DNA of 42,975 bases from Mycobacteriales bacterium. GTDB taxonomy: Bacteria > Actinomycetota > Actinomycetes > Mycobacteriales > QHCD01. The translations under genes were made by a program, and so were the position numbers. This document shows, one piece after another, positions 27,184 to 37,149 of the stretch; positions within the stretch are counted from its first letter, which is position 1, and each line of letters starts with the position of its first letter. Location: assembly GCA_036497565.1 (NCBI GenBank), contig DASXJE010000017.1, positions 1 to 42,975 of the forward strand, in the 5' to 3' direction. The notes under the pieces are model-generated. The model was not told where the DNA came from. It saw nothing but the letters and a program-made list of their open reading frames with translations, and did not search any database.

Positions 27184-28314
27184 GTGCGTGAGGTCCTGGC
27201 CGACGTACTCAACTGGTGCCGCAGCGGTCGCGGCTGTGCGACCGCGACCGTCGTCGCCACGTTCCGCAGCGCGCCGCGGCTGCCCGGCGCCGCGATGGCC
27301 GTGTCGGCAGACGGTGTGGCGGTCGGCAGCGTGTCCGGCGGCTGCGTCGAGGGTGCGGTCTACGAACTTGCCCAGGAGGTCATCGGCAGCGGCGTTCCGG
27401 TGCTCGAGCGCTACGGCGTGAGTGACGATGACGCCTTCGCAGTGGGGCTGACCTGCGGCGGGATCATCGACGTCCTCGTCGAACCGGTCCCCGCCGGCCG
27501 GCTCGCCGAACTCGAGGCGATCAACGAGGCGGTCGCCGGCCAGCGGCCGGTCGCCAGCGCCACGATCATCTCCGGGCCGCGGCCGATCGGCACGCGGATC
27601 CTGATCGGACCGGACACGGTCACCGGATCGCTGGGCTCGATCGGTCTCGACGTGGCCGTCATCGATGACGCGCGGGGCATGCTCGAGCAAGGCATGACCG
27701 ACGTACGACGATACGGGGCCGACGGCGAGCGTCGCCGCGACGACCTGGCCGTCTTCGTACAGTCCTTCGCGCCCCCGCCCAGGCTGCTCGTCTTCGGCGC
27801 CATCGACTTCGCCGCCGCCGTCGCCTCGATCGGAACCTTTCTCGGCTACCAGGTCACCGTCTGCGACGCGCGTCCCGTATTCGCCACCAGCAAACGCCTT
27901 CCGCACGCGGCCGAGGTGGTCGTGGCCTGGCCGCACACCTACCTCGCCGCCGAGGTCTCGGCCGGGCGGATCGACGACCGGACGGTCGTCTGCGTCCTCA
28001 CCCACGACCCGAAATTCGACGTACCGCTGCTGGAGGTGGCGTTGCGTACACCGGCCGCCTACATCGGTGCAATGGGCAGCCGGCGGACCCATGACGACCG
28101 GCTCGCGAAGCTGCGCGAACTCGGCCTGGCCGAGGCCGAACTCGACCGCCTCGCGTCACCGATCGGCCTCGACCTCGGGGCCCGGACCCCCGCGGAAACG
28201 GCCGTGTCGGTCGCGGCGGAGATCATCGCGCTGCGTCGGGGCGGCTCGGGACGGCGACTGGCCGACGCGCAAGGGCGGATCCATGGCGCGCCGGCCCGTG
28301 AGAGCGTCGGTTGA
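27184..28314 (+). CDS. xdhC: XdhC/CoxI-family molybdenum-hydroxylase maturation factor
   Basis: Predicted cofactor chaperone that binds and delivers the mature Mo cofactor to a molybdenum hydroxylase. It is 376 residues. The N-terminal XdhC/CoxI domain has AVSADGVAVGSVSGGCVEGAV and LTCGGIIDVLVEP. The C-terminal Rossmann domain has LLVFGAIDFAAAVASIGTFLGY, VCVLTHDPKFD, YIGAMGSRRTHDDR and GARTPAETAVSVAAEI. GTG start with GGGGA about 7 bases upstream. Its stop overlaps the TTG start of the MocA-like gene. It opens the CO dehydrogenase locus. Confidence 0.9.
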   Translation: MREVLADVLNWCRSGRGCATATVVATFRSAPRLPGAAMAVSADGVAVGSVSGGCVEGAVYELAQEVIGSGVPVLERYGVSDDDAFAVGLTCGGIIDVLVEPVPAGRLAELEAINEAVAGQRPVASATIISGPRPIGTRILIGPDTVTGSLGSIGLDVAVIDDARGMLEQGMTDVRRYGADGERRRDDLAVFVQSFAPPPRLLVFGAIDFAAAVASIGTFLGYQVTVCDARPVFATSKRLPHAAEVVVAWPHTYLAAEVSAGRIDDRTVVCVLTHDPKFDVPLLEVALRTPAAYIGAMGSRRTHDDRLAKLRELGLAEAELDRLASPIGLDLGARTPAETAVSVAAEIIALRRGGSGRRLADAQGRIHGAPARESVG

Positions 28315-28865
28315 GCGGGCCGGCCGGTCTGGTTCTCGCGGCCGGCGCCGGCCGCCGGTTCGGTTCGGCCAAGGCGCTGGCGACGTATCAGGGCGAGCGG
28401 CTCGTCGATCGCGCCATCCGGCTGCTCCGCGACGGCGGCTGCCGGCCGGTCATCGTCGTCGCGGGCGCCGCAGCACTCGACGTCGACGGCGCCGATGTCG
28501 TCGACAATCCGGATTGGTCCACCGGAATGGGCTCCTCGTTGCGGTGCGGACTCGCCGCGGTCACGGCGGATGCCGTGGTGGTGGTCCCGGTCGACACGCC
28601 CTGGCTCGGCGCGGAGTCGGTGCGGCGGGTGATCGGCGCCTACGACGCCGGCGCCGCTCTCGTCACCGCGACCTACGACGGCGCACAACGGCACCCCGTG
28701 CTGCTCACCCAAAAGCACTTTGCCGACATCACCCGGCTGGCGGTAGGCGACCGTGGCGCCCGGCCGTATCTGCGCGCCCATTCCGACGAGGTGGTCGAGG
28801 TGCGCTGTGACGACACCGGGTCACCGGACGACGTGGACACCCCGGCGGATCTCCGCCCGTGTTAG
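28311..28865 (+). CDS. mocA: MobA/MocA-like molybdenum cofactor cytidylyltransferase
   Basis: Small nucleotidyltransferase of 184 residues, predicted to join CMP to Mo-molybdopterin to give the cytosine dinucleotide form used by CO dehydrogenases. The signature LAAGAGRRFGSAKAL lies at residues 8-22, followed by DNPDWSTGMGSSLRCGLAAV and VVVPVDTPWLG. The start is a TTG whose last two bases begin the TGA stop of xdhC, a four-base overlap (TTGA). CTP over GTP preference is inferred from the cox neighbourhood. Confidence 0.82.
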   Translation: MSGPAGLVLAAGAGRRFGSAKALATYQGERLVDRAIRLLRDGGCRPVIVVAGAAALDVDGADVVDNPDWSTGMGSSLRCGLAAVTADAVVVVPVDTPWLGAESVRRVIGAYDAGAALVTATYDGAQRHPVLLTQKHFADITRLAVGDRGARPYLRAHSDEVVEVRCDDTGSPDDVDTPADLRPC

Positions 28866-28917
28866 GGCGCATCATTGCCAGCCCTCAGCAACGCGGTCAT
28901 GATTGGTGCATCATCCC

Positions 28918-28935
28918 GGACGCGTAGTTGCGTCC
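28918..28935. promoter_or_regulatory. Short hairpin upstream of coxM
   Basis: GGACGC and GCGTCC flank a 6-base loop just before the coxM ribosome site, in a 91-base gap after mocA that also has GCATCAT twice (28869 and 28908). This is the largest gap in the cox locus and the likeliest place for an internal promoter or attenuator. No sure -35/-10 pair was found. Confidence 0.3.
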
Positions 28936-28956
28936 TGCCTGGATGGAGGGGGCCCC

Positions 28957-29832
28957 ATGCAGGTGCCCGCACGGTTCGAGTACGAACGCGCCACCAGCGT
29001 CGATCATGCGCTGTCACTGCTCGAGCGGGCCGGACCTGACTCGTTCCTGATCGCCGGCGGGCACAGTTTGATCCCGATGATGCGGCTCCGGCTGGCCCAG
29101 CCCGAGTCGGTGATCGACATCAACGACCTCACCGAGCTGTCCTACATCAGGGTCGACGACGGCCACCTGTGCATCGGCGCGCTGACCAGACATGCCGAAT
29201 TGCTCGCGTCACCGCTGGCTCATGAGCACTTCCCCATCTTCACCGACGCCGAGCGGGTGATCGCCGACCCGATTGTGCGCAACCGCGGCACGATCGGCGG
29301 CTCGCTGTGCCAAGCCGACCCGGCGGAGGATCTATCCGCGGCGTTCGCGGCCGTGCACGCGACCGCGGTGATCCGCGGATCGTCGCAGCAGCGGGAGGTG
29401 CCGGTGCGCGAGCTGCACACCGGACCCTACGAGACCGTCGTCGGCGACGCGGAGATGCTGACCGAGCTGCGCGTGCTGATCCGCCCGGGCGGCGGCAGTG
29501 CCTACGAGAAGGTCGAGCGTCGGGTCGGCGACTGGCCGGTCGCAGCGGCCGGAGCCGCGGTGTGGCTGGACGGCGACGTGGTCGCCGATGTCGGCATCGG
29601 ACTCACCGCCGTCGGTGCCGCACACTACTTCGCCCCCGAGGCGGAGGAATTCCTGCGCGGGCAACCGGCCACCGACGACAGCTTCGTCGAGGCTGGCCGT
29701 ATCGCGGGGGAACACTCCAATCCGACGGCCGACCAACGCGGTCCGGTCGACTACAAGCGGCACCTTGCCGACGAGCTCACCACCCGCGCGCTGCGCCGCG
29801 CGACGGCCCGCGCACTGGGGCAGGAGGCCTGA
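28957..29832 (+). CDS. coxM: CO dehydrogenase medium subunit, FAD-binding (CoxM)
   Basis: Flavoprotein subunit passing electrons from the CoxS iron-sulfur clusters to the quinone pool. It is 291 residues. FAD-binding motifs are IAGGHSLIPMMRLRL (about residues 32-46) and TIGGSLCQADPAEDLSAA (about residues 110-127), followed by the CO-dehydrogenase flavoprotein C-terminal domain. The ATG at 28957 has GGAGGGGG upstream. coxS starts one base after its stop. Confidence 0.95.
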   Translation: MQVPARFEYERATSVDHALSLLERAGPDSFLIAGGHSLIPMMRLRLAQPESVIDINDLTELSYIRVDDGHLCIGALTRHAELLASPLAHEHFPIFTDAERVIADPIVRNRGTIGGSLCQADPAEDLSAAFAAVHATAVIRGSSQQREVPVRELHTGPYETVVGDAEMLTELRVLIRPGGGSAYEKVERRVGDWPVAAAGAAVWLDGDVVADVGIGLTAVGAAHYFAPEAEEFLRGQPATDDSFVEAGRIAGEHSNPTADQRGPVDYKRHLADELTTRALRRATARALGQEA

Positions 29833-29833
29833 C

Positions 29834-30313
29834 ATGCAGATCACCGTGACGGTCAATGGCGAGGAGCACACCGACGAGGTCGAGCCGCGCCTGCTGCTGG
29901 TGCACTACCTGCGCGACCACCTGCGACTGACCGGCACCCACTGGGGCTGCGACACGTCCAACTGCGGAACCTGCGTGGTGTGGCTGGACGGAACGCCGGC
30001 GAAGTCCTGCACCGTCCTTGCGGCGATGGCCGACGGGCGCGCGGTGCGGACGGTAGAAGGCCTCGCCGACGGAGCAACGCTCGATCCCGTGCAGCAGGGC
30101 TTCGTCGAGTGTCACGGTCTGCAGTGCGGCTTCTGTACGCCGGGGATGTTGCTCACCGCACGCTGGCTGCTCGACCACAACCCCGACCCGTCCGAAGGTG
30201 AGATCCGGGAGGCGATCTCGGGCCAGTCGTGTCGCTGCACCGGATACGAGAACATCGTCCGGTCCGTCCGGTGGGCCGCCGAGCACGAGCGCACCACGGA
30301 GGTATCGGCATGA
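29834..30313 (+). CDS. coxS: CO dehydrogenase small subunit, 2x[2Fe-2S] (CoxS)
   Basis: Iron-sulfur subunit of 159 residues. The N-terminal plant-type ferredoxin domain has the cysteines of [16 protein letters not shown] and a later Cys in KSCTVL. The C-terminal [2Fe-2S] domain has the cysteines of CGFCTPGM and [10 protein letters not shown]. Both clusters are complete. Its stop overlaps the coxL ATG (ATGA). Confidence 0.97.
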
Positions 30314-32682
30314 CCGACGTCGCGGAACGGCCGATCGGTTACGGCCGGATGACCCGGAAGGAAGACCCCCGGTTCATCCGCGGCCACGGCAACTACATCG
30401 ACGACATCACCCTGCCGGGCATGCTGCACGCAGCGATCCTGCGCAGCCCCTACGCGCACGCGCGCATCGTGTCGATCGACACCAGCGCCGCCGAGGCCGA
30501 CCCGCACGTCAAGGCGGTCATCACCGGCGAGACGCTCGCCGGTCTCAACCTCGCGTGGATGCCCACACTGTCCAACGACGTGCAAGCCGTGCTGGCCACC
30601 GACAAAGTGCGCTTCCAGGGTCAGGAAGTGGCGTTCGTGGTCGCCGACGATCGCTACGCCGCCCGCGACGCCGTGGAATTGATCGACGTCGATTACGAGC
30701 CCCTGCCACCGGTCGTCGACGCCCGGCACGCGCTCGACGCGGACGCCCCGGTGATCCGCGACGACGTGGAGGGCAGGTCGGACAACCACATCTTCGACTG
30801 GGACGCCGGTGACAAGGTCCGCACCGACGCGGTCTTCGCCGACGCCGAGGTGGTCGTCTCGCAGGACATCCTCTATCCACGGGTGCACCCCGCGCCGCTG
30901 GAGACCTGCGGGTCGATCGCCGACCTGGACCCCATCACCGGGAAGCTCACCGTCTGGACGACGACGCAGGCGCCGCATGCGCACCGCACGATCTACGCAC
31001 TCGTCGCCGGACTGCCGGAGCAGAAGATCCGCATCATCTCCCCCGACATCGGTGGCGGCTTCGGCAACAAGGTCGGCATTTATCCCGGATACGTATGCGC
31101 GGTGGTCGGTTCGATCGTCACCGGCAAGCCGGTGAAGTGGGTGGAGGACCGGTCGGAAAACCTGGTCAGTACGTCGTTCGCCCGCGACTACCACATGCGC
31201 GGCGAGATCGCGGCGACCAAGGACGGCACGATCCGCGCGCTACGGGTCAACGTGCTCGCCGACCACGGGGCGTTCAACGGCACCGCGCAGCCGACCAAGT
31301 TCCCGGCCGGCTTCTTCCACATATTCACCGGCTCCTACGACCTCGAGACGGCGTACTGCGCCGTCACCGGCGTCTACACCAATAAAGCGCCCGGCGGCGT
31401 CGCCTACGCGTGTTCGTTCCGGATCACCGAGGCGGCCTACCTCGTCGAGCGGATGGTCGACGTACTCGCGCAGGAGCTGAAGATGGATCCCGCCGAGCTC
31501 CGGCTGAAAAACCTGCTCCGGCCCGAGCAGTTCCCCTATACGTGCGCGACCGGCTGGGTCTACGACTCGGGCGACTACGCGCACACGCTGAGGGAGGCGA
31601 TGCGGATCGCCGGGTACGACGACCTGCGCCGTGAACAGGCGGAGAAGCGCGAGCGGGGCGAGCTGATGGGAATCGGGATCAGCTTCTTCACCGAGGCGGT
31701 CGGCGCCGGCCCGCGCAAGGACATGGACATCCTGGGCCTCGGCATGGCCGACGGCGCGGAGCTCCGGGTACACCCGACCGGCAAGGCGGTGCTGCGGCTC
31801 TCGGTGCAGACACAGGGACAGGGCCACGAGACGACGTTCGCGCAGATCGTCGCCGAGGAGATCGGCATTCCGCCGGACGACATCGAGGTCGTCCACGGCG
31901 ACACCGACCAGACGCCCTTCGGCCTGGGCACCTACGGCTCCAGGTCGACGCCGGTCTCTGGTGCGGCGACGGCCGTGGTGGCACGCAAAGTCCGGGACCG
32001 GGCCCGCATCGTCGCCTCCGCCATGCTCGAGGTGGCGCCCGACGATCTGGAGTGGGAGAAGGGCCGATTCTTCGTCCACGGCGACCCGGACCAGGGCAAG
32101 ACGATCCAGGAGATCGCGCTCGCGGCGCATTCCAGCCTCGAGCTGCCCGAGGGCGTCGAGGGGCAACTCGACGCCACCTGCGTCTACAACCCCCCCAACC
32201 TGACCTATCCCTTCGGTGCCTACATCTGTGTCGTGGACGTCGATCGCGGCACGGGTGCGGTGAAGGTCCGGCGGTTCATCGCCGTCGACGACTGCGGAGT
32301 GCGGATCAACCCGATGATCGTCGAGGGCCAGGTGCACGGCGGGCTCGCCGACGGGGTGGGCATGGCGCTGATGCAGGTGATCGCCTTCGACGCCGACGGC
32401 AACTGTCTCGGCGGGTCGTTCATGGACTACCTGCTACCAACCTCGATGGAATGCCCGTCGTGGGAGCTCGGTGAAACAGTGACACCGTCGCCGCACCATC
32501 CGATCGGCGCCAAGGGCGTCGGGGAGTCGGCCACGGTCGGCTCCCCCGCCGCCGTGGTCAATGCGGTGGTGGACGCGATCTCGCCGCTCGGCGTACGGCA
32601 TGCGGACATGCCGCTCACCCCCGCCAACGTCTGGGCGGCTATGCAGGGCCGGCCGGTGCGCACCGACCTGGCCATCACCTAG
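30310..32682 (+). CDS. coxL: Form I aerobic CO dehydrogenase large subunit (CoxL)
   Basis: Catalytic Mo/Cu subunit that oxidises CO to CO2, 790 residues. The active-site loop is AYACSFR (residues 365-371, bases 31402-31422), with Cys368 as the expected copper ligand. AYxCSFR separates true form I CO dehydrogenases from form II (AYRGAGR) proteins. Cofactor motifs include GGGFGNK near residue 240, QGQGHETT and GAKGVGESA with Glu739 as the expected base near molybdenum. The gene order coxM-S-L matches known actinobacterial loci. It is followed after 4 bases by the XdhC-YHS fusion gene. Confidence 0.97.
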
Positions 32683-32686
32683 ATCG

Positions 32687-33598
32687 GTGAACCCGGTGGC
32701 CCGAACCGACCCGGACGCCCGCGCGGAGGAGTTGCACGCGGCCCGTCGGCCGTTCGTCCGGGCCGTGGTCGTGCGGGTCGAGCGGCCGACGAGCGCCAAG
32801 CCGGGCGACCGCGCCCTCATCCTCCCCGACGGCACCATCGAGGGGTTCGTCGGCGGCGTCTGCGCTGAGTCCACCGTGCGGCTGCAGGCACTCGACCTCC
32901 TGGAGTCCGGGGAGTCGACGCTGTTGCGCATCACGCCCGCCGCCGCTGAGACCGTGAAATCCCACGAGGGGCTGACCGAGGTGGCCAACCCGTGCCTGTC
33001 CGGCGGCACGGTCGAGATCTTCCTGGAGGCCGTCATCCCGGCACCGCTGCTGCACGTCCTCGGTGACACCCCCGTGGCTCGTGCGCTGGCCCGGATCGGG
33101 GCCGCGCTCGACTACGACGTAAGGCCGACCACCGAACCCGACGCACCGATCGCGCCGGACGCCGCGGCGGTGGTGGCCGCCTCACACGGGCGGGCCGAGG
33201 AGGCGGTGCTGGCGGCGGCGTTGCGGGCCGGCGTGCCCTACGTCGGGCTGGTCGCCAGCCGCCGCCGCGGCCCGGCCGTGGTCGCCGCACTCGACGCGTC
33301 CGAGAGCGACAAGGCACGCTTGCACACGCCGGCGGGGCTCGACATCGGCGCCGCAGGACCGGCGGAGATCGCGTTGTCGATCCTCGCCGAGATCATCGAA
33401 TCGCGGCCGCGCCATCGGGCGGCGAAGGACACGCCTCGCAAGGACACGCCTCGCGCGGCCACCGACCCGGTCTGCGGGATGTCGGTCGCCGTCTCGGCGG
33501 CCAGCCTGCACCTCGAGCACGCGGGTACGACCTGGTATTTCTGCAACCCGACCTGCCGGCAGAGCTTCGCCGAGGAACCCGGACGCTTCCTCGCATGA
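32687..33598 (+). CDS. XdhC/CoxI-family protein fused to a C-terminal YHS domain
   Basis: 303 residues. Residues about 10-115 are an XdhC/CoxI N-terminal domain (GFVGGVCAESTVRLQAL, ANPCLSGGTVEIFLE) and about 120-245 the XdhC Rossmann domain (LLHVLGDTPVARALARIG, YVGLVASRRRG, GAAGPAEIALSILAEI). A short linker with a duplicated KDTPR leads to a YHS domain (TDPVCGM at 259-265, WYFCNPTC at 283-290, end EPGRFLA). YHS domains are metal-associated and occur in Cu-ATPases. Inside a cox operon the protein is a candidate CoxF-like factor for the Cu-S-Mo centre, which is inference. Start GTG 32687 is likely; GTG 32696 is possible. Its stop overlaps coxD (ATGA). Confidence 0.87.
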   Translation: MNPVARTDPDARAEELHAARRPFVRAVVVRVERPTSAKPGDRALILPDGTIEGFVGGVCAESTVRLQALDLLESGESTLLRITPAAAETVKSHEGLTEVANPCLSGGTVEIFLEAVIPAPLLHVLGDTPVARALARIGAALDYDVRPTTEPDAPIAPDAAAVVAASHGRAEEAVLAAALRAGVPYVGLVASRRRGPAVVAALDASESDKARLHTPAGLDIGAAGPAEIALSILAEIIESRPRHRAAKDTPRKDTPRAATDPVCGMSVAVSAASLHLEHAGTTWYFCNPTCRQSFAEEPGRFLA

Positions 33599-34503
33599 GC
33601 GGTACGGGGAGCGACGAGCTCAGCGGGCGGCTGCCGGACGTCGCCGCGGTGGTCGCCGGGCTGGACCGCACCGACTACCTCGCCGAGGTCGGGCTCGCGA
33701 CCGCGCTCTTCCTCGCCGTACGGATGGGCCAGCCGATCCTGCTCGAAGGCGAACCCGGAGTGGGGAAGACCGAGGCTGCCAAGGCGCTGGCCACCGTCCT
33801 GGACACACCGCTGATCCGCCTGCAGTGCTACGAGGGCCTCACGGCCGCGGAGGCGCTGTACGAGTGGAACTATCCGCGGCAGCTGCTCGGCATCCGGTTG
33901 GCCGAGGCGCGCGGCGACGTGCCCCGCGAGGTCGACCTGTTCAGCGCCGAATACCTGTTGGCCAGGCCACTGCTCGCCGCGCTCGACCATCCCGGCCCGC
34001 GGCCGGCGGTGTTGCTGATCGACGAGGTCGACCGGGCCGACGACGAGTTCGAGGCGTTTCTGTTCGAACTGTTGGCCGAGTCGGCCGTGACGATCCCGGA
34101 GCTCGGTACGCGGCGCGCGGCGGTTCCGCCGGTGGCGGTGCTCACTTCCAATCGCACCCGCGACCTACACGATGCGCTGAAGCGGCGCTGTCTCTACCAC
34201 TGGATCGGCTACCCGGACGTCGAGCGGATCGCGGCGATCGTCCGGCGCCGGGTGCCCGGCGCCGCCGAACCTATCGCCGGTCAAGTGGCCGGGTCGGTCG
34301 CGCGGCTGCGGGGACTGGGACTCACCAAGCCGCCCGGTGTCGCGGAAGCGATCGACTGGGCGGACGCGCTGCGGGTGCTCGGTGTCGGGGAGCTCGACGT
34401 CGACTCGGCCGGCCGGACCATGAGCGCCGTACTGAAGTACCCCGAGGACGAGGAGACGACCCGCCGGGCCGGATTCGCCGAGGTGGTCGTCGGTCATGGG
34501 TGA
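33595..34503 (+). CDS. coxD: MoxR-type AAA+ ATPase (CoxD)
   Basis: Maturation ATPase, 302 residues. Walker A is GEPGVGKTE (about residues 53-61), Walker B is LLIDEVDRADD, and sensor 1 is VAVLTSNRTRDL. In Oligotropha the CoxD protein is implicated in building the Cu-S-Mo cluster of CO dehydrogenase. It overlaps the fusion gene upstream by 4 bases and coxE downstream by 8 bases. MoxR ATPases usually work with a VWA protein, here CoxE. Confidence 0.93.
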   Translation: MSGTGSDELSGRLPDVAAVVAGLDRTDYLAEVGLATALFLAVRMGQPILLEGEPGVGKTEAAKALATVLDTPLIRLQCYEGLTAAEALYEWNYPRQLLGIRLAEARGDVPREVDLFSAEYLLARPLLAALDHPGPRPAVLLIDEVDRADDEFEAFLFELLAESAVTIPELGTRRAAVPPVAVLTSNRTRDLHDALKRRCLYHWIGYPDVERIAAIVRRRVPGAAEPIAGQVAGSVARLRGLGLTKPPGVAEAIDWADALRVLGVGELDVDSAGRTMSAVLKYPEDEETTRRAGFAEVVVGHG

Positions 34504-35677
34504 CATCGACCTCGCCACCGGCGTCGCCCGGTTCGGCGCCGCGCTGCGGGCCGCCGGCCTCCCGGTCGGCCCGGACCGCTCGGCGCGCTTCGCCCGGGCC
34601 ATCGCCGTCGCCCGGCCCCGCACCACCACCGCACTGCACCAATGCGGGCTGGCCACGCTGGTCTCTGACCCCGACCACATCGCGACCTTCGACGCCGTGT
34701 TCGCCGCGGTATTCGGTGGCGCCACCGATCCAGCCGAGCACCGCGGCGACCCGACCGCGCCGCGCCCGACCTCGGCGCCATCCGCCGCGACCCAGCCGGC
34801 GCCGGCACCGGGCGGTTCGGCGGAGATCAGGTCCGCTTCGACCGGCGACGACGGCACCACCCGGCCGGTACCGCTGCGGGCATACGCGAGCGGCGACGAG
34901 CGCCTCTCCGGGCGCGACTTCGCTGACCTGTCCCCCGACGAGCTCGCTGTGCTGGCCCGACTCATGCGCGATCTGAAGCTGGCCACCCCGCCACGCCAAT
35001 CTGCCCGGTACCGGCGTACCGCCCGGGGCCACCGCATCGACCTGCGGACCACCCTGCGACAGGCTCGTCGTACCGGTGGCGACCCCCTGCGCATCTCCCG
35101 GCGGACGCATCGGCAGCGGCCGCGCCGGATGGTGGTGCTGTGCGACATCTCGGCGTCGATGGAGGCCTACTCCCGCGCGATGCTGCAGCTGCTCTACTGC
35201 GCCGCCGGCGGCGCACACGCTGAGGTGTTCACGTTTGCGACGAGGTTGACCCGGCTGACCCGGGAGCTCCACTCAGGGCGTCCGGGCACGGCCTTGGAAC
35301 GGGCTGGGCGGGCCGCGCCGGATTGGTCCGGAGGTACCCGCATCGGGGCGGCACTGGCGGACTTCAACGACCGTTACGGCTGCCGCGGCATGGCCCGCGG
35401 TGCCGTCGTCCTGATCGTCTCCGACGGGTGGGAGACCGGCGACCCGGCCCAACTCGGCCGCGAGATGGCGCGGTTGTCCCGGGTCGCCTACCGGATCGTC
35501 TGGGCCAACCCGCGCACGCAGAGCCCGCGCTACCGGCCATTGGTCGGAGGCATGGCGGCGGCCTGGCCATACTGTGATGCCGTAGTCAGCGCGCACAGCC
35601 TCTCCGCACTGACCGACCTCATCGAGGCGCTCGCCGACCCTGTCCACTCCCGGAGAGGAACGCCGCCATGCAGCTAG
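34496..35677 (+). CDS. coxE: VWA-domain CO dehydrogenase maturation protein (CoxE)
   Basis: 393 residues. The N-terminal half has a Pro/Ala-rich variable linker. The C-terminal half is a von Willebrand A-like domain with the metal-ion-dependent adhesion site CDISASM (DxSxS) near residue 220, FTFATRLTRLTREL and IVSDGWETGD. It is the expected partner of the CoxD ATPase in metal-centre assembly. ATG start overlaps the coxD end by 8 bases; coxG begins inside its last 10 bases. Confidence 0.92.
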   Translation: MGDIDLATGVARFGAALRAAGLPVGPDRSARFARAIAVARPRTTTALHQCGLATLVSDPDHIATFDAVFAAVFGGATDPAEHRGDPTAPRPTSAPSAATQPAPAPGGSAEIRSASTGDDGTTRPVPLRAYASGDERLSGRDFADLSPDELAVLARLMRDLKLATPPRQSARYRRTARGHRIDLRTTLRQARRTGGDPLRISRRTHRQRPRRMVVLCDISASMEAYSRAMLQLLYCAAGGAHAEVFTFATRLTRLTRELHSGRPGTALERAGRAAPDWSGGTRIGAALADFNDRYGCRGMARGAVVLIVSDGWETGDPAQLGREMARLSRVAYRIVWANPRTQSPRYRPLVGGMAAAWPYCDAVVSAHSLSALTDLIEALADPVHSRRGTPPCS

Positions 35678-36366
35678 TCAACGAGTTCACGGTCTCCCAG
35701 CCGATCGACGACTCCTGGGCGCTGCTGACCGACGTCGAACGTATCGCCCCCTGCATGCCGGGCGCGCAACTGACCGAGGTCGAGGGCGACGTCTACCGCG
35801 GAAAGGTCACCGTGAAGGTCGGCCCGATGCTCGCCCGGTTCGCCGGGCAGGCCGAGTTCCGTGAGCTCGACCGCGACGCACAACGGGTCGTGCTCGAGGC
35901 GCGCGGAAAGGAATCCGGGGGCAAGGGGATGGCCAATGCGGTCATCACCGCCCAGCTCACCGAGCAGGGAACGTCGACGCTGGTGCAGGTCACCACCGAC
36001 CTGACGATCTCCGGCCGGCTCGCGCAGTTCGGGCAGGGCGCGCTGGGCGACATCAGCAACAAGCTGCTCGGCCAGTTCGTCGACTGCCTCGAGCATCGCC
36101 TCGCCGGTGACGAGCCGGCCGAGCCGCAGCGGCCCGCCCCGCGCGCGCCGGACGCCGCCGCGACCTCCGACACGGGTGGAGCCGCCGCCGAATCCGAACG
36201 GCCGGGACCGCCCGAGGAGAAGCGTCTCATCCAGAGCCCGGATGCGTTGCCGGTCAACCTGCTGCAGACCGCCGGCGTACCGATCGTCAAGCGGCTCGCT
36301 CCCCCGCTCGCACTGGTCGCCGTCCTCGTCGGCCTGGTCATGCTGGCACGGCGCCGGCGACGGTGA
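35668..36366 (+). CDS. coxG: SRPBCC-domain CoxG, membrane anchor of CO dehydrogenase
   Basis: 232 residues. Residues about 1-148 are a START/SRPBCC lipid-binding fold (ISQP-like start FTVSQPIDDSWALLTDVERIAPCMPGA, GDISNKLLGQFVDCLEHRL). A Pro/Ala-rich linker follows, then one C-terminal membrane helix (about 208-227) with a short Arg tail. CoxG homologues recruit CO dehydrogenase to the membrane and can carry quinone. GGAGAGG precedes the ATG, which lies within coxE. Confidence 0.92.
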   Translation: MQLVNEFTVSQPIDDSWALLTDVERIAPCMPGAQLTEVEGDVYRGKVTVKVGPMLARFAGQAEFRELDRDAQRVVLEARGKESGGKGMANAVITAQLTEQGTSTLVQVTTDLTISGRLAQFGQGALGDISNKLLGQFVDCLEHRLAGDEPAEPQRPAPRAPDAAATSDTGGAAAESERPGPPEEKRLIQSPDALPVNLLQTAGVPIVKRLAPPLALVAVLVGLVMLARRRRR

Positions 36367-36372
36367 CCGACG

Positions 36373-37149
36373 ATGACGCCGGCCCGGGCGGACGAGAGCT
36401 ACCTGCTGAGCGACGACATCACCGCGATGATCTTCGGTGTCGACGGCGTCGTACTCGACACGCTGCGCGTCTCGGCCGAGACCTGGCGGTCGGTACTCGA
36501 CCCGTTCCTGCGCTCGTACGTCGAACTTCATGACACGGTGCTCCGGCCGTTCAGGGTGCCGGCCGATTACCTGCGTTATTTCTACGGCCGGCCCCGCACG
36601 GACGGCCTCGCGGACTTTCTCGCCTCCCGCCTGATCACGCTGCCCTTCGACGACCTGCGCGGCTTGGCGGTGCGCCAGGAGGAGCTGTTCCTCTCCGAGG
36701 CCCGCCGCCTTGGCACCCCGCCGTACCAGTCGACGGTTGGGTTGGTCCGGACCGCCCGGCAGCGGAAGCTGGCCACCGCCGCGGTCTCGGCGGAGAGCTA
36801 CGCCGCCGAGCTGTTGGAACTGGCGGGCGCCGCGGCCCTGTTCGACGTCCGGCTCGACGCCACCGATGCGACGGGCGTGTGGCGTCCCGGCGATCCCGAA
36901 CAGATCCTCTTCCTCGAGGTGGCCAGGCGTACGACCACACCGCCGGAGCGCACTGCGGTCGTCGAGAGCCGCATGGACGGGGTGGCCGCGGCGAAGGGCG
37001 GCGGTTTCGGGGTGGTGATCGGCGTCGACCGGGCCGGGCGGCCGGATGCGCTCCGCGAACGGGGCGCGAACGCCGTACTCAGCGACCTGTCCGGACTCCG
37101 GTTCGCAGGGCCCCCGCCGAGCGATGATCGCCCCTCGCCTTCTGCATGA
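36373..37149 (+). CDS. HAD-fold protein lacking the catalytic aspartate
   Basis: 258 residues, resembling beta-phosphoglucomutase-like HAD phosphatases. Motif I reads MIFGVDGVVLDT, so the nucleophile Asp of FDxDG is Gly22; the general-acid Asp24 is kept. Motif II is present (AAVSAES). Motif III reads VWRPGDPEQILFLEVA with Arg for the usual Lys, and the late acidic motif ED reads ES (VVESRMDGVAAAKGGGF). These changes argue against normal phosphatase or mutase activity. It starts 6 bases after coxG, so it belongs to the cox transcript. Its TGA stop lies in the left arm of a palindrome. Confidence 0.82.
   Translation: MTPARADESYLLSDDITAMIFGVDGVVLDTLRVSAETWRSVLDPFLRSYVELHDTVLRPFRVPADYLRYFYGRPRTDGLADFLASRLITLPFDDLRGLAVRQEELFLSEARRLGTPPYQSTVGLVRTARQRKLATAAVSAESYAAELLELAGAAALFDVRLDATDATGVWRPGDPEQILFLEVARRTTTPPERTAVVESRMDGVAAAKGGGFGVVIGVDRAGRPDALRERGANAVLSDLSGLRFAGPPPSDDRPSPSA

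Follow-up and report, generated by a model that had tools for sequence, protein, structure and literature searches.

Soil and sea harbour abundant aerobic CO oxidisers (PMC6794299). How copper is delivered to CO dehydrogenase (CODH), whose Cu-S-Mo site is buried, is an unsolved question. The closest described system is that of Oligotropha (Afipia) carboxidovorans. There, sulfuration of the Mo centre involves CoxD and takes place in apoenzyme that has folded, and CoxF works on folded apo-CODH in which the Mo cofactor is in place (PMC4240915). Mutants in coxE and coxF produce Cu-free CODH, and it is in this organism only that the need of CoxF for active-site copper is known (PMC4240915). Since CoxE and CoxF are each missing in the other's mutant, these phenotypes do not cleanly distinguish what CoxF does from what CoxE does (PMC4240915). 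CoxF was proposed to act as a copper escort through a weak motif, M107-CPSHGTM (PMC4240915). The published copper model draws on one alphaproteobacterium, a weak candidate copper motif, and a suspected phytase activity.

YHS domains have been linked to copper in another setting. Cu2+ is the only activator of an adenylyl cyclase of Mycobacterium phlei that carries a YHS domain, which shows indirectly that the YHS of this one protein binds a transition metal (copper); toluene and phenol hydroxylases carry YHS domains without known copper (PMC4626032). Here, we describe a protein in which an XdhC-type sequence and a YHS domain are fused, encoded in a 42,975-nucleotide stretch of Mycobacteriales DNA (the window). 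A search of open-licence papers found none in which XdhC is mentioned together with a YHS domain, or YHS together with CODH. CoxF and YHS are each known, and their conserved fusion and its distribution appear to be undescribed in that literature. In public annotation, the YHS-bearing CoxF genes are called "XdhC family protein."

A CoxF-type protein with a YHS domain in a cox operon

The fusion gene (positions 32687 to 33598) lies, like all features given here for the window, on the forward strand, starts with GTG, and encodes 303 amino acids. Pfam profiles identified an XdhC_CoxI domain at residues 17 to 82 (32735 to 32932; 66.9 bits against a cut-off of 24.3) and an XdhC_C Rossmann domain at residues 122 to 236 (33050 to 33394; 80.7 bits against 29.7). 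These are followed by an interdomain linker at about residues 241 to 256 (33407 to 33454), where pLDDT falls to 56 to 80, and by a YHS domain at residues 259 to 302 (33461 to 33592; PF04945, 34.6 bits, above the gathering cut-off of 30.3). The YHS domain reads D260-P-V-C263-G-M265 and then F285-C286-N-P-T-C290, with the D/C + C + C-x3-C ligand set of PF04945 present as the predicted ligands D260, C263, C286, and C290. The fusion between coxL and coxD that had been called from the letters alone is thus real and its residue numbers stand; the motif given then as CxGM reads C-G-M. A chance or mis-called YHS domain is ruled out by the same domain in the same place in 155 deduplicated CoxF-type relatives, and an artefact of frame or assembly in a single metagenome-assembled genome by the fusions in one- or few-contig genomes (e.g., G008, G012, and G048).

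The gene sits within an operon in the order coxM, coxS, coxL, fusion gene, coxD, coxE, and coxG. Pfam matches support coxM (FAD subunit, 28903 to 29832), coxS (2Fe-2S subunit, 29810 to 30313), and coxD (MoxR-like AAA+ ATPase, 33595 to 34503), as well as coxE (VWA_CoxE, 34496 to 35677; PF05762, 196.7 bits) and coxG (35668 to 36366; PF06240, 79.7 bits). The coxL gene (30310 to 32682) encodes a form I CODH large subunit (TIGR02416, 1379.7 bits against a cut-off of 991.15) in which the AY-x-CSFR active-site loop is present as AYACSFR; the loop cysteine is residue 368 counted from the ATG at 30310 (codon 31411 to 31413). The fusion gene begins 4 bases past the coxL stop, and its own stop is overlapped by 4 bases by the coxD ATG at 33595. 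Directly after coxG, the window encodes a HAD-superfamily (beta-phosphoglucomutase-like) hydrolase (36373 to 37149), and a HAD hydrolase gene is also close to a Paraburkholderia cox cluster (L347).

Upstream of coxM, the window holds a second, ordinary XdhC with two XdhC_CoxI repeats and no YHS match in Pfam (27184 to 28314), and a MocA/MobA-like nucleotidyltransferase, a candidate Mo-cofactor cytidylyltransferase by Pfam and a further profile search (28311 to 28865). For Mo-cofactor handling, this XdhC and MocA-like pair (27184 to 28865) is a better candidate than the fusion protein.

To place the fusion protein within the XdhC family, we compared it with O. carboxidovorans CoxF (WP_013913733.1, translated from pHCG3). 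The two align and have the motifs GGxCA and C-x-S-x-G-T in common; the fusion protein is 36% identical to this CoxF, compared with 29% for the second XdhC of the window and 26% for CoxI. In a tree of 105 XdhC sequences, built by a quick method with the YHS columns left out and 14 other XdhC sequences as the outgroup, all CoxF-type proteins fall on one side of a branch with 99% SH-aLRT support. The fusion protein shares with O. carboxidovorans CoxF the XdhC_CoxI and Rossmann (XdhC_C) build, the XdhC clade, and a form I CODH cluster, here with coxL, coxD, coxE, and coxG. It differs in length (303 versus 280 amino acids), in its YHS domain, which O. carboxidovorans CoxF lacks, and in gene position, since O. 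carboxidovorans coxF sits after coxE and the fusion gene between coxL and coxD. The proposed copper motif M107-CPSHGTM falls at C103 of the fusion protein. The XdhC fold itself is shared more widely, with XdhC of Rhodobacter capsulatus, CoxI, and the mycobacterial Rv0376c-type XdhC (2we7 and 2we8).

Taken together, these sequence relationships show the fusion protein to be CoxF-type, and hence a putative maturation factor of form I (Mo-Cu) CODH. The original prediction had one polypeptide couple Mo-cofactor handling with copper (or sulfur) delivery to the site around CoxL Cys368. Being CoxF-type, the protein is not a generic deliverer of Mo cofactor; O. carboxidovorans CoxF acts on apo-CODH in which that cofactor is already in place (PMC4240915).

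Distribution of the YHS domain among XdhC proteins

We surveyed 80 named genome contigs together with samples of the window's phylum, of Thermogemmatispora's phylum, and of plasmids. CoxF-type proteins were recognised with a profile from which the YHS columns had been taken out, and duplicates were removed by sequence; this also covers a sample drawn as the "phylum of G352," which is the window's phylum again and not an independent replicate. Of the 171 complete CoxF-type proteins, 155 have a YHS domain and 16 do not; 3 more proteins are cut by contig ends. One of the two seeds of the named-contig search was a pattern inside YHS, which inflates the YHS frequency in that set; the window-phylum sample is less affected. 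Among other XdhC proteins, which in the ordinary form have two XdhC_CoxI repeats, none of the 125 sampled has a YHS domain. This excludes YHS as a general XdhC add-on.

Large subunits were typed within 6 kb of the XdhC genes. Wherever one could be typed beside a CoxF-type gene it was form I (149/149, or 152/152 with the three cut proteins), and no association of CoxF-type proteins with non-copper Mo hydroxylases was found. The YHS domain is carried by 135 of these 149 CoxF-type proteins. Among the 125 other XdhC proteins, 44 are near form I enzymes (the second XdhC of the same clusters), 32 have a non-form-I enzyme nearby, and 49 have neither; YHS is found in 0/44 and 0/32 of the first two sets. 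The proposed tie between the fusion and form I (Cu-S-Mo) CODH is therefore upheld, and an equal frequency of YHS-XdhC fusions beside non-copper hydroxylases, the pattern that would have contradicted it, was not seen (0/32 versus 135/149). Fisher values range from 1e-25 to 1e-66 and are overstated, the sequences being related. A single ancient fusion retained with CoxF may account for the tight linkage, and the counts would then not be independent of one another.

In the window's phylum, all 49 of the 296 genomes that have a form I coxL also hold a CoxF-type gene, and in the only two other genomes with a CoxF-type gene (G156 and G176), coxL is present as fragments where the contig or the fetched DNA ends. 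Within these 51 genomes, YHS is present in 47 and absent in 2, with truncated sequences in the other 2. Across the survey, 20 YHS proteins are without a typed neighbour, all explained by short flanks or contig ends except those of G350 and G028. The orphan fusion in G350 was dropped as a counterexample, as that genome has a form I coxL on another contig. G028 is a true exception, with a fusion kept and no form I coxL over the cut-off. Its orphan CoxF-YHS (L204 / L016) has lost both conserved XdhC cysteines while its YHS domain is intact, which suggests either a relic or a repurposed protein.

A candidate copper site and alternative roles

To examine which residues are retained, we aligned 45 diverse members. 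D260, P261, C263, M265, V267, C286, and C290 of the YHS domain are invariant, and so are two cysteines outside it, C59 in the XdhC_CoxI domain and C103, also in the XdhC part. All but one of the 154 fusions (153) retain the three YHS cysteines, and conservation of the ligand cysteines far exceeds that of the remainder of the domain. AlphaFold2 gave confident models of the full fusion protein (pLDDT 92, pTM 0.85) and of the YHS domain alone (pLDDT 96). The XdhC part matches 2we7, 2we8, and 3on5, with a best PDB match of Z 16.5 (2we7/2we8-type); in Foldseek searches with the whole model, the Rossmann part outweighed the rest. With YHS modelled alone, the Foldseek matches to toluene/phenol hydroxylase YHS and L24e were weak (E 0.13 and worse), and a profile search gave weak zf-FCS/TRASH similarity. 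TRASH domains, which are related to YHS, bind zinc or cadmium.

In the plasmid collection, the closest YHS domains outside XdhC proteins include those of P-type ATPases. One of these, from Pararoseomonas (WP_075822070.1), passes the Cu-ATPase model TIGR01511, adjoins cueR, and is near a copper oxidase gene; its YHS domain is 54.5% identical over 44 amino acids to that of the fusion protein. This ATPase is a membrane exporter with an N-terminal YHS domain, whereas that of the fusion protein is C-terminal. The M. phlei cyclase has a C-terminal YHS domain with the same ligand set of one Asp and three Cys, but there it is joined to a cyclase and serves as a sensor rather than a maturation factor (PMC4626032).

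The best overall explanation, which we regard as probable, is that the fusion protein is a CoxF whose YHS domain holds copper and donates it to CODH. The XdhC part would dock on folded apo-CODH having a sulfurated Mo centre. The C-terminal YHS domain would bind copper through D260, C263, C286, and C290, with M265 nearby, and would pass it, perhaps via the conserved C59 and C103, to the Mo-S group and CoxL Cys368. YHS is favoured as the copper-holding module because Cu2+ is the specific switch of the YHS-bearing cyclase (PMC4626032). In lineages that have it, YHS is a better candidate copper site than M107-CPSHGTM. By eye, that motif can be matched to the C-G-G of ordinary non-copper XdhC (LTCGG in the protein of 27184 to 28314), a match in which MAFFT did not align the columns; it would weaken M107-CPSHGTM as a copper-specific site.

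The linkage and conservation data also bear on other roles. YHS could act as a copper sensor or gate: bound copper would be the signal that permits CoxF to act or to dock on CoxD/CoxE, and the copper inserted would have another source. The sole biochemically studied YHS protein is indeed a Cu2+-switched enzyme and not a donor (PMC4626032), and a YHS-less CoxF works in O. carboxidovorans, so that donation by YHS is not obligatory (PMC4240915). The exclusive, tight linkage of YHS to a copper-inserting factor is nevertheless explained at least equally well by donation, and we consider a sensor unlikely. Quite unlikely, too, is a zinc-bound or metal-free module that serves in structure or docking, holding CoxF on CODH or CoxD/CoxE. 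Such a role would suit the nearest folds and solved sequences (L24e and toluene/phenol hydroxylase YHS), the zf-FCS/TRASH similarity, and Deinococcus, which retains a fold-like tail with the ligands lost; it fits poorly with ligand cysteines conserved far above their surroundings and with the occurrence of the nearest non-XdhC YHS domains in P-type ATPases, including a Cu-ATPase.

It is also conceivable that what the YHS cysteines carry is not copper but persulfide sulfur destined for the Mo-S-Cu bridge, as the site needs a sulfido ligand too and XdhC proteins have been linked to sulfuration (PMC2997495). We judge this very improbable. In O. carboxidovorans, sulfuration needs CoxD and partly persists in coxE and coxF mutants, in which it is copper that is missing (PMC4240915), and ordinary XdhC proteins beside other Mo hydroxylases that need sulfuration never have YHS (0/125).

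For the favoured role as copper donor, a YHS domain with three cysteines that is absent from other XdhC proteins offers a concrete, removable candidate copper site. Most sampled CoxF lineages carry YHS while the best-studied model is without it, which opens a direct test of copper delivery, with the natural YHS-less mycobacterial CoxF proteins as matched controls.

Lineages with and without the YHS domain

YHS-bearing CoxF spans actinobacteria, Chloroflexota, betaproteobacteria, and one haloarchaeon. Examples include Thermomicrobium roseum, a known CO oxidiser (PMC6794299), as well as Paraburkholderia aromaticivorans, Caballeronia, and the haloarchaeon Natronorubrum bangense; the Pseudomonadota sample was small and consisted of plasmid records only. 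The YHS-less CoxF proteins in form I clusters are 7 alphaproteobacterial sequences, 7 mycobacterial sequences, and 2 others. The domain is not universally required, since the model organism and the other alphaproteobacteria do without it, as do some mycobacteria. No standalone YHS ORF was found within the fetched flanks of YHS-less CoxF loci, and a move of YHS to a separate gene at these loci was rejected on this basis.

On the CoxF tree, the YHS label changes five times. The alphaproteobacterial CoxF proteins, all without YHS, form one group, and the other branch holds all YHS-bearing proteins together with nine YHS-less ones. Because the mycobacterial, Phytohabitans, and Actinomycetospora CoxF proteins that are without YHS lie deep inside YHS-bearing groups, they are best read as losses, judging from the tree. 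With the rooting of the CoxF clade uncertain, the alphaproteobacteria may either have lost YHS or never have had it. We tentatively suggest, at somewhat less than an even chance, that YHS is a dedicated donor module on CoxF and the ancestral copper route to CODH in bacteria and archaea, and that the alphaproteobacterial model lost YHS and uses a derived route.

Several loci depart from the common arrangement. Three carry a CoxF-type protein with two tandem YHS domains (L099:7959-9152, the same gene as that of L326; L126; and L282), and the L326 gene is away from coxL, which is on another contig of that genome. The CoxF of Deinococcus AJ005 (L294:5914-6975) has a degenerate YHS-like tail in which the first Cys is lost, and a gene for a TIGR02466 protein lies between coxG and coxF. 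The Phytohabitans CoxF (L054:7980-8744), which is without YHS, is directly followed by a coxG-like frame and not by coxD. One contig (L043) is titled Acidobacteriota while the phylum sample of its genome is the window's phylum; the title is probably wrong. In Caballeronia SBC1, the CoxL loop (L293:698-3142) reads AYRCSFM, not AYRCSFR.
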